In this document: positions 46,339-49,606 of the stretch, piece by piece
Layout: every line of letters begins with the position of its first letter
Position numbering within the stretch: position 1 is the stretch's first letter
Origin: Veillonella seminalis
GTDB lineage: Bacteria > Bacillota > Negativicutes > Veillonellales > Veillonellaceae
Direction: 5' to 3'
DNA length: 64,000 nucleotides
Assembly: GCF_003992065.1 (NCBI RefSeq)
Contig: NZ_RQUZ01000001.1
Span: 124,001-188,000 of the forward strand
The notes under the pieces: generated by a model
Told to the model about the DNA's origin: nothing
Database searches by the model: none
The model's input: only the letters and a program-made list of their open reading frames with translations
Translations under genes and position numbers: made by a program

Positions 46339-47295
46339 ATGATATTGCATATTTTTATGACTACGGTCGCACCTATTTTACTTCTTGTTCTCATCGGTTA
46401 CTTTATGGATAAAAAATTCCATATGGACCTTGATACACTGAGCAAAATCAATTTCTATGTTGTGTCACCGGCCTTTTTGTTTACCAACACATACAGCTAT
46501 ACGGTGTCGGGTGAAAGTGCACAAGTAGTGTGGCTAACCATTATCGGCTTTGCGGCGACTTGGATTGCCAGTATGATTTTTGAAAAAGCACTGGGCCTAT
46601 CCCGTGAAAAATCCGGTATTTTTCGTAATGCCGTGTTATTTAACAACTGTGGTAACATTGGGGTGCCGCTTATTGTGTTTATCTACTCCAATGAGCCGTT
46701 TTTGCAAAACGGTTCACCTGTATGGTTACAGGCGGCTATCGCCATTCAGATTGTCGTATTCGTTTGGCAAAATATTGTAACCAACAGCTTTGGTTTTTAC
46801 TTTGCCGGACAGGGCAAAATGAGTCGTACCGATGCGATTAAGTTAGTATTTAAAATGCCGATTATCTATGCTGTAGCAGGTGCGGCTCTCTGTAGTTTCG
46901 GAAATATCCCTATTGATGAAACATTCTTCTGGCCGGTTCTGACCAACGTAAGTAATGCCCTCGTTATGGTCGCTTTATTTACGCTGGGGGTTCAATTGGC
47001 AAGAACACCGTTCAACTTCTTTACGCGAGAAGTAATTTGGGGCAGTTCCGTTCGCCTTATTGTAGGTCCTTTGGTGGCGTGGCTGGTAATTTGGCCTTAT
47101 GAACTTGTGGCAGGTCCCGTTTCGGAACTCGTTATGCAAGTTCTCGTCATTTCGGCAGCTGTTCCGAGTGGTGTCACCACAGCACTCATTGCAGGCGTCT
47201 TAAAAACAGAAACAGAATATGCTACCCAACTCGTTGTGGCGAGCACCGTATTCGCGGCTATAACACTGCCAATAGTAATTATGTTAGTTAAGTAA
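46339..47295 (+). CDS. AEC-family transporter
   Basis: 318-residue permease with about ten helices. RNAVLFNNCGNIGVPLI (helix 4) and the end VLVISAAVPSGVTTALIAG are characteristic of the auxin-efflux-carrier family, whose bacterial members mostly move malate or other dicarboxylates. Near an SDH-type metabolism this would suit, but no substrate evidence is local. It ends inside the first palindrome at 47294. Confidence 0.8.
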   Translation: MILHIFMTTVAPILLLVLIGYFMDKKFHMDLDTLSKINFYVVSPAFLFTNTYSYTVSGESAQVVWLTIIGFAATWIASMIFEKALGLSREKSGIFRNAVLFNNCGNIGVPLIVFIYSNEPFLQNGSPVWLQAAIAIQIVVFVWQNIVTNSFGFYFAGQGKMSRTDAIKLVFKMPIIYAVAGAALCSFGNIPIDETFFWPVLTNVSNALVMVALFTLGVQLARTPFNFFTREVIWGSSVRLIVGPLVAWLVIWPYELVAGPVSELVMQVLVISAAVPSGVTTALIAGVLKTETEYATQLVVASTVFAAITLPIVIMLVK

Positions 47296-47459
47296 GCCGG
47301 CTTCAAAGATGCAATCGGTTTTAACAATGAAATAAGAAAAGAAATGGCTCCTCACAAGGCTTGGTTTTGCGCAGCAAAAAGACCCTTGTGAGGAGCCATT
47401 TTCTTTCCATTTGATTATCATCTCAATTCAAACCGTTGTATACCTTTGAAAGCCGGCTT
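47294..47459. repeat. Giant palindrome 1
   Basis: Nested inverted repeats about 166 bp long. Outer arms AAGCCGGCTTCAAAG (47294-47308) and CTTTGAAAGCCGGCTT (47444-47459); inner arms AAATGGCTCCTCACAAGG (47342-47359) and its perfect complement (47384-47401). The 24-base apical part (47360-47383) contains TTTTGCGCAGCAAAA. The left arm starts in the stop codon of the AEC gene. Confidence 0.85.
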
Positions 47460-47479
47460 TAACTAGCGAGGGGGGAAGG

Positions 47480-47506
47480 GGAGGTTTCTGCGTTGCAGAA
47501 ACCTCC
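47480..47506. repeat. Hairpin between the two giant palindromes
   Basis: GGAGGTTTCTGC and GCAGAAACCTCC form a perfect 12-bp stem with a GTT loop, flanked by further partly complementary GGGGAAGG/CCTTCCTCC tracts. Confidence 0.8.
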
Positions 47507-47523
47507 TTCCTCCCTCCAACGCC

Positions 47524-47772
47524 GGTAAGAACAGGCATAAAGTTCTTTGCGCAAAGTTCCTGATGGGACTTATTATGCCGCTAAAAACAGTCATAAAGTA
47601 CTCTGGGTAAAAGAAACGGAGAGGTCCACATCTAAGGGTCTTTTTACTGCGCAAAACCAAGCCTTAGATGTGGAGCCTCTCCGTTCTTTATAACCTATAC
47701 CTTTATACTGTTTTTAGCTCTAATGTAGCCCCCATTAGGGGCTTAAGGACGAACCTTATGCCTGTTCTTACC
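47524..47772. repeat. Giant palindrome 2
   Basis: Nested inverted repeats about 249 bp long: GGTAAGAACAGGCATAA (47524-47540) with TTATGCCTGTTCTTACC (47756-47772), GCTAAAAACAGT (47580-47591) with ACTGTTTTTAGC (47707-47718), and CCACATCTAAGG (47626-47637) with CCTTAGATGTGG (47662-47673). The apical 24 bases (47638-47661) are the reverse complement of the apex of palindrome 1 with one mismatch. The right arm runs into the gltS stop codon. Confidence 0.85.
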
Positions 47773-49051
47773 AAGTCCCCATCCACGTAATAATAATGGC
47801 ATTGACGAAGTCAATCAGGAACGCACCAACGAGTGATACGATGAGCCATGCTTTAGGCGATGGACCGTATTTTTCAGCCAAGGACTGCATGTTGGCGAGA
47901 CCGTTGGCAGTAGCACCCATGGCAAAACCGATACCGCCTACGCCGAGCATAACGCCGTCGTAGTTTTTGCCGAAGAGTAAGAAGTAACCGAGCCATGCAA
48001 AGACAATCATGAGAAGTGTCTGAGCAATCAAGATTACTACGAGTGGTAAAGCCAAATGAATCAATTCGTATAGTTTCAAGCTGTTAATAGCCATAGTAAC
48101 ATATACGGTTAATGCTACTTCGGATACTACATTGAGGCCGCCGCCCTGTACGCGATACATACCGGAGAAGTCACCGATATTACGAATGACAGCTGCTACG
48201 AGCATGGCACCGATGTAAGCCGGTAAGGTAATGAATGTGTTGAGGTAAGCACTGAGTACGGCACCGAGACCTACAGCTACGAATACGAAACCGGCTGCTT
48301 TTAATACGCCGTTTACGTCGGTTGTTTCTTCTTCTTCAAGAATAGACATATCGAATACATGTGGTTCTAATTGAGCAGCTGCCGGATTATCAGCTTCTGA
48401 TTCAGGAATGTTTTTAGTTGCATTCGGAGTTGTTTTAGGATCAATATGTTGCGAACCGGGAGTTTTAATTTTGTAGTGTTTAATTAAGAATTCACCGAAA
48501 GGTCCGCCAAGTACGAGCGCTACTACCATACCGAAGGTAGCGGCTGTAATAGCTACGGTTGTAGCACCTTGAATACCATATGTGGTTTCAAAGTACGGGC
48601 CGAAAGCCGCCGAGGTACCGAGACCACCCATGAGGGAAACGGCACCGGCCAAGATGCCGTAGTGAGGGTCAATTCCCATGGCACCGGCAATAGACATACC
48701 CAACAAGTTCTGGATGAAACCGAGAATCGAGGATACGATTAAGTATAAGATAAGTGCGATACCACCGTATTTGATAAGTTTTAAGCTGGCCATCATACCG
48801 ATGGTAGTAAAGAATACCAAGAGGGCTACGGTAGATAAAGTATTGTCAAAATCGACTTGTAAAATTCCGTATACACGTAATCCGGATAAAATGAAGGCAA
48901 ACGGCAGACCACCGATTACCGCAGCCGGTAAGCTGAGCTTTTGGAATACGGGAACTCGGTTTTTGATCCATAAACCGATGAAATACGTCACAAATGCGAG
49001 TGCGACCGCTTGTACGCTACTGATTTTGACTGTCAAGACTTCTGCGCCCAT
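47768..49051 (-). CDS. gltS: Sodium/glutamate symporter
   Basis: 427-residue ESS-family permease: two sets of helices with the paired pore loops GGLGTSAAFGPYFE and GVGGIGFAMGATANGLANM, separated by a charged loop (about 225-260). Start 49051 has AAGGAGG upstream; a further ATG 12 codons earlier does not. Likely imports glutamate or a related dicarboxylate with Na+. Convergent with the AEC gene across the palindromes. Confidence 0.85.
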   Translation of the reverse strand: MGAEVLTVKISSVQAVALAFVTYFIGLWIKNRVPVFQKLSLPAAVIGGLPFAFILSGLRVYGILQVDFDNTLSTVALLVFFTTIGMMASLKLIKYGGIALILYLIVSSILGFIQNLLGMSIAGAMGIDPHYGILAGAVSLMGGLGTSAAFGPYFETTYGIQGATTVAITAATFGMVVALVLGGPFGEFLIKHYKIKTPGSQHIDPKTTPNATKNIPESEADNPAAAQLEPHVFDMSILEEEETTDVNGVLKAAGFVFVAVGLGAVLSAYLNTFITLPAYIGAMLVAAVIRNIGDFSGMYRVQGGGLNVVSEVALTVYVTMAINSLKLYELIHLALPLVVILIAQTLLMIVFAWLGYFLLFGKNYDGVMLGVGGIGFAMGATANGLANMQSLAEKYGPSPKAWLIVSLVGAFLIDFVNAIIITWMGTW

Positions 49052-49606
49052 AAACAACGCCTCCTTTGAGCAAGCTGACTCCCTCATAATACTGATAAGC
49101 AGGCGTTTATAACTTCGATTGCCGATAGACGGTAAGCCGTTCGCTTGTATTTAACGTACAAGCAGTCATAGCAAATAGGAAGTGAAATGACATTATTGCG
49201 CCGGACATTAACTATATTATAAGAGGCTTCATAATACAGATGATTTAACCGTGTAGTTGAATTAATGGGAAGAAAATTATGGCAACCGGTATTATGAAAC
49301 TAAAAAATGATGAGTGCGGAAGGTGAGTTTCATGAACGAAACAGACCTTCTTTTAATAAATATTTCAACTTGATAATATTATACTATGCGAGTGCGTAAA
49401 AATACAATAAAAATATGTAAAATTCTATGTATACAAAAATCATGAGAATGCATTTAAGCTGATAAACAATAGGTTATGTGGTCTGATGATTATAAAATCA
49501 ACTGAATTATAAATTCTATAAATTGTTTATTTGTGCATAAAATAAGATTAATTATACATATAAAAACAAATGTAGTTACCTTAAAAATATAATAAAATAA
49601 ACAAAA
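49052..49606. other. Long AT-rich intergenic region
   Basis: Upstream of gltS lie two small inverted repeats, ACGG/CCGT and GCTTGTA/TACAAGC (49143-49163), probably in the gltS leader. The rest, to 49606, is strongly AT-rich without a supportable ORF or folded element. Confidence 0.4.

Follow-up and report, generated by a model that had tools for sequence, protein, structure and literature searches.

Mobile palindromic repeats of organelle genomes insert into older copies, and IS1272-type insertion reportedly replaces an inverted repeat. The organelle repeats spread within their genome (e.g. PMC2670323, PMC4478555), template switching is documented as creating and maintaining RNA hairpins (PMC8794818), and bacterial REPs, 20–40 bp long and present in high copy number, carry a single terminal tag, either GTAG or CGTC (PMC3733652). 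Here, we describe in Veillonella a family of extragenic palindromic repeats that is conserved inside rather than at its ends.

Bidirectional terminators and the organelle repeats are the nearest analogies. As with intrinsic, including bidirectional, terminators, several elements of the Veillonella family lie between convergent genes, several loci carry inner arms that look like an A-tract, a GC stem and a T-tract, and a plain hairpin occupies two orthologous sites in non-carriers; unlike terminators, the Veillonella arms reach ~200 bp, are nested and enclose an apical internal loop that is conserved across unrelated loci. The organelle repeats are likewise palindromes that spread within a genome, whereas the present family is bacterial and combines variable arms with a conserved apical internal loop. 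IS1272-type insertion also takes a stem-loop as its target, but the Veillonella elements contain no transposase gene. Template-switch hairpins (PMC8794818) also show compensatory stem changes made in one step, although that mechanism alone gives no reason to expect the same apex to be conserved at unrelated loci. Finally, REP/RAYT repeats are extragenic palindromes that are often found downstream of genes and are probably transcribed, as here; in contrast, the Veillonella elements are about ten times larger, few in number, conserved inside instead of at the ends, and unaccompanied by a RAYT.

Two nested palindromes between convergent transporter genes

The starting point was an intergene, locus A, within the window, that is, the whole 64-kb stretch of V. 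seminalis DNA that was analyzed. An AEC-type transporter gene and a glutamate symporter gene converge there, and the palindromes A1 and A2, together with a third hairpin, fill the space between them (Table 1). The first-pass annotation had reported two giant nested palindromes plus a third hairpin between convergent transporter genes, and both its coordinates and its description were correct. Its statement that the arms reach the flanking stop codons was borne out as well, with the first arm beginning inside 47293–47295 and the last arm spanning 47768–47770. So was the apical motif shared in opposite orientation, which extends over 32 nt, 31/32 of them alike after reversal (97% complementary).

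Each apex is sense to its own upstream gene, that of A1 to the AEC-type gene and that of A2 to the glutamate symporter gene. The predicted fold energy of the complete intergene is −241 kcal/mol vs −132 ± 6 kcal/mol for shuffled sequence (z = −17), and A1, the third hairpin and A2 are the top three 90-nt hairpins by stability within the window. A 25-nt form of the apical motif, searched with up to three mismatches, occurs twice in the window against an expectation of 0.00. Rfam gave only weak microRNA-hairpin matches in the window, far below the gathering score. The core of the third hairpin is identical in Veillonella sp. KGMB01456; in V. ratti, this hairpin was not seen. Inversion by a DNA invertase at the two oppositely oriented apices was also weighed but dropped, both because the arms would no longer pair afterwards and because three species share the A1+/A2− order.

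Table 1. Features of locus A, with window coordinates, and gene context of the family loci; gene names at loci B–F were read from the sequences, not from a domain search.
Feature	Position	Strand	Description
AEC-type transporter gene (auxin-efflux-carrier-type)	46339-47295	+	Mem_trans PF03547; upstream gene of A1
Palindrome A1	47294-47460	+	~167 bp; outer arms 47294-~47323 / ~47429-47460 enclose the inner hairpin
A1 inner hairpin	47336-47407	+	arms 47336-47359/47384-47407, 24 bp, 92% complementary
Family 1 apical motif in A1	47356-47387	+	32 nt; AAGGCTTGGTTTTGCGCAGCAAAAAGACCCTT
Third hairpin	47467-47517	.	purine-rich; core 47480-47506; tip GAGGTTTCTGCGTTGCAGAAACCTCC
Palindrome A2	47524-47772	-	249 bp; outer arms 47524-47545/47751-47772, 95% complementary
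A2 inner hairpin	47610-47689	-	arms 47610-47637/47662-47689, 75% complementary ungapped
Second family 1 apical motif copy, in A2	47634-47665	-	opposite orientation to the A1 copy
Sodium/glutamate symporter gene	47768-49087	-	Glt_symporter PF03616; upstream gene of A2
Locus A			AEC/GltS intergene
Locus B			after purB
Locus B3			after an MFS gene
Locus C			ThrE/thioredoxin intergene
Locus D			intergene of a small conserved gene and rpsT
Locus E			upstream of purA
Locus F			between an adhesin-like gene and rpsB

A dispersed family with fixed apices and changing arms

A1 and A2 belong to a small dispersed palindromic repeat family whose members lie mostly at gene ends. With up to three mismatches, the apical motif itself has two copies in the V. 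seminalis genome and two in that of KGMB01456. A first covariance model, built from five copies, found additional members, and a second, built from 15 copies, confirmed them. By these models, five loci are strong in V. seminalis (A1, A2, B, C and D), six or seven in KGMB01456 (including A1, A2, B, C, D and E), and five or six in V. ratti ATCC 17746 (A1, A2, B, C and D, plus partial or weak matches). The strong loci of the three species are largely orthologous, and among the other 25 Veillonellaceae genomes the covariance model gave no family 1 match better than E 0.06. Elements measure ~130–430 bp and number ~5–12 copies, counts that rest on model searches and on samples of V. seminalis (864 kb), V. 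ratti (400 kb) and the non-carrier G001 (400 kb).

A palindrome scan covered 464 kb of V. seminalis and 400 kb of V. ratti, both picked to include known loci, and the 400 kb of G001. Giant palindromes bearing family apices were confined to the carriers; a rescan of G001 without N runs showed a single arm pair, of 70 bp, whose centre differs. Another 400 kb of V. seminalis, unselected for known loci, contained one more large palindrome, without family apices, and the family is thus low-copy.

These searches bear on the proposal, made in the first-pass annotation, of a repeat family with a conserved apex over varying but still paired arms, for which the alternative was one local duplication and inversion. 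The motif and its paired arms recur at other loci and in congeners, and the local duplication was accordingly rejected. The further expectation that copies sit between convergent genes held in part: most are at gene 3′ ends, several of them between convergent genes, but E, F, P2 and L252 are not so placed.

The family is apparently undescribed and is found in a few related species, V. ratti and its closest relatives. Nothing relevant was found in the literature on Veillonella palindromes and nested palindromes, and Rfam gave no gathering-score match in 12 loci. Outside Veillonella, the family 1 apex pattern has matches in other phyla, which we attribute to chance because paired arms are absent there. 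An origin from phages or plasmids was rejected, as neither the phage nor the plasmid collection searched contained DNA similar to the elements and the two viral contigs that match the apex pattern lack paired arms.

The arms of family 1 covary strongly, with a score of 0.466 vs 0.162 ± 0.021 when shuffled and at most 0.11 when slid, and with 41 double-change cells vs 13 ± 3 when shuffled and at most 12 when slid. While the arms vary, the apex columns AGGCTTGG..AAGACCCT are nearly invariant and form a conserved internal loop, CTTGG / AGAC, below a short tip stem. Three apex classes are known, namely family 1, class F (GCTCC[TA]GG..AAAAGTCG) and class P (GC-ACAC..CTAAG-GC). A class F pattern that leaves the tip free has seven matches, which are confined to the three carriers, four non-carriers having none; the tips are paired in 7/7, and most differ in sequence. 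Class P covaries similarly, in four sequences only, and its inner tip varies among CAC/GTG, CTC/GAG and CTT/AAG; diverged relatives occur in genomes G003 and G005, equally placed upstream of a cggR-like gene. Since both arms and tips vary yet stay paired in classes F and P, the internal loop sits between two freely changing helices. In the outer arms, however, pairing is preserved less strictly, because pairwise comparison of whole arms between orthologs revealed many one-sided changes besides the double changes; compensation counts on MFE pairs were noisy in this comparison.

Several individual elements deserve mention. Immediately outside the inner 3′ arm, in the right arms of several elements (e.g. 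window 47417–47427), there is another short stretch of conserved sequence resembling TATCATCTCAA; it is present in A1, P1 and P2 and weaker in C and F. The longest palindrome found, a class F element of ~430 bp, follows the malic enzyme gene of V. seminalis (L104:13123-13560); its V. ratti ortholog has different arms and a different tip, both still paired. Downstream of it, a UvrA-like frame is split into two ORFs (L104:13647-14957), possibly by a frameshift. In V. seminalis, a carboxymuconolactone-decarboxylase-like gene has a class P palindrome on either side (L111:5608-6695); in V. ratti (L150:16337-16756), this gene is absent and the second palindrome is inverted. A palindrome located after the element at the purB end and before the MFS gene (L012:1200-1330, L019:1040-1200) contains GGTGGTATCGCGG, which resembles a T-box leader motif, and also bears the family 1 apex AAAGGCTTGAAGGAAGACCC. 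Finally, a 270-bp palindrome of V. seminalis, Q (L099:7386-7656; L099:7525 in the palindrome scan), has the unclassified apex GTGACCAAAAAGCCTTTTTCCAGCTTTTGGGGCGC; it is 1.8 kb away from locus B, with a rarA-like gene on one side and an MFS gene on the other.

Gene ends and the terminator reading

In eleven elements, a stop codon immediately precedes the palindrome: A1, A2, B, B3, C, D, P1, the P2 of V. seminalis, F2 after malic enzyme, F2 in V. ratti (after a dCMP-deaminase-like gene), and L251 (after an aldo/keto-reductase-like gene). In 11/11 of these, the apex has the sense orientation relative to the preceding gene, a split that was drawn after seeing the data and for which C and D, lying between convergent genes, were scored against the nearer gene and class P was oriented by a common right-arm motif. 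In the remaining 4/15 distinct elements (E, F, L252 and, in most species, P2), no stop codon immediately precedes the palindrome, and three are antisense to their neighbours; over all 15 elements, the orientation bias is 11:4 and not significant (p about 0.12).

The inner arms at C and D bear A-tracts and T-tracts and end in T runs. In oriented stems, G–T mismatches number 24 vs 12 for A–C (p about 0.07), a weak sign of RNA rather than DNA pairing. A simple terminator scan at the window locus gave nothing above chance. Taken together, gene-end position, orientation, tracts and G–T excess favor, but do not prove, transcribed 3′-end hairpins with a terminator function. That function enters the likeliest reading because several inner arms resemble the terminator layout and because non-carriers have a single ordinary hairpin each at the orthologous loci A (AEC/GltS) and C (ThrE/thioredoxin). 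The remark of the first-pass annotation that a simple terminator would not need such a structure is fair as to size, but does not do justice to the terminator-like inner arms or to the plain hairpins of non-carriers.

We give a probability of roughly 0.5 to the reading that the family consists of transcribed, terminator-like 3′-end palindromes, in which pairing is kept by template switching or conversion together with selection and the apical loop is recognized. Transcripts of the upstream genes would run into the palindromes, which would thus form the 3′ ends of those mRNAs, and the inner hairpin, with its A/T-rich flanks, would act as an intrinsic, often bidirectional, terminator and form the mRNA end. 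Template switching during replication within the hairpin would rewrite the arms with complementarity retained, and ectopic conversion between copies could do the same. The apical internal loop, in turn, would be retained because a putative RNA- or hairpin-binding cellular factor recognizes it. Against this reading stands the fact that a terminator has no need of 100–200 bp arms, as do the chance-level terminator scan, the one-sided arm changes between orthologs and the non-significant orientation bias over all elements. More tentatively, these may be gene-end elements of a new kind, internal-loop modules shown to a lineage-specific factor, with arms rewritten or re-inserted from the apex outward; the candidate modules, one per class, would be CUUGG/AGAC, UCCWGG/AAAAGUC and ACAC/CUAAG.

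Copying of arms and competing explanations

Comparison of the carriers revealed how the elements change. A1 of V. seminalis and A1 of KGMB01456 have nearly identical apices and unrelated inner arms. The KGMB01456 A1 arm matches locus B of V. seminalis (84% over 106 bp, E 2e-24), which indicates that arms are copied between loci, and copies at non-orthologous loci are homologous through common arms. A1 of V. ratti is a copy nested within a copy. Locus B holds one full and two half copies in KGMB01456 and one full and one half copy in V. ratti, where the half copy and the KGMB01456 full copy share 98.8% identity over 81 bp. At locus B, the half copies start at the apex, and half-copies breaking at the apex also occur at locus E and in G003, whose locus P2 contains tandem half copies that start there. 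In V. ratti, the palindrome at locus E is absent, and one of its arms persists as single-copy sequence. Upstream of a cggR-like gene (L229:1510-1870), G003 carries three tandem direct copies beside one giant palindrome; the repeat unit, ~165 bp, comprises apex, 3′ arm and flank, and the layout matches that of locus B in KGMB01456 with a different apex class.

A non-autonomous mobile element could account for much of this. A recombinase or transposase encoded elsewhere would recognize folded single-stranded DNA, namely the apical hairpin, and move it; the preferred targets would be the loops of terminators or of older copies, producing nested palindromes. Arms common to different loci, the nested copy in V. 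ratti, the half-copies broken at the apex and the outermost arms of locus C, which resemble a terminator stem enclosing the element, all accord with such movement. We nevertheless regard this explanation as unlikely, since conservation is found inside only. The outer ends differ from locus to locus, without conserved terminal inverted repeats, and visual comparison of sites with and without the element at loci E, A and C showed no target duplication. A linked REP-type transposase, for which the first-pass annotation proposed a test, was not supported: Y1_Tnp (PF01797) is absent from V. seminalis and from the carrier V. ratti, as is reverse transcriptase (PF00078); KGMB01456 has one Y1_Tnp copy. 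With copy number low and most copies orthologous, any movement of the elements would be rare.

Slightly more doubtful is the explanation that these are ordinary terminators enlarged by template switching and palindrome correction alone, with the apex an unrecognized frozen relic. Such a mechanism has been documented (PMC8794818), it is compatible with the double changes, the nesting and the half-copies, and element E of KGMB01456 has its arm remnant in V. ratti. However, it leaves unexplained a near-invariant apex across loci with unrelated arms, the recurrence of distinct internal-loop classes, and a class F internal loop that is kept despite a freely varying tip stem.

Mobilization by RAYT as REP elements, or membership of another known family of extragenic palindromes, is very improbable: the elements are indeed extragenic, palindromic and located at gene ends, but their size and copy number are unlike those of REPs, RAYT is absent from V. 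seminalis and V. ratti, and REP/RAYT and reverse-transcriptase mobility were both rejected in V. seminalis on the absence of PF01797 and PF00078. Although giant palindromes are a classic type of artefact, a foldback introduced by assembly or sequencing has a negligible probability, given orthologous palindromes in three separately assembled species and arms that covary instead of being identical.

In bacteria, SbcCD cleaves long palindromes and so normally makes them unstable, yet the carrier species retain SbcD and hold palindromes of 130–430 bp at gene ends. Loss of SbcCD was rejected as a reason for the long palindromes: SbcD is present in 7/7 congeners, and its absence therefore cannot be what allows the palindromes to persist. 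That SbcCD cutting of hairpin ends might be a natural source of the apex breaks is only an idea. Among close relatives, the pace of evolution differs greatly between arms, tips and apex, and the system therefore permits direct tests of how hairpins are born, how pairing is kept up and how copying proceeds, whether by template switching, selection or transposition. The fixed tip motif amid changing paired arms looks as if something cellular recognizes the tip, and the family thereby points to a putative factor that recognizes the apical internal loop.
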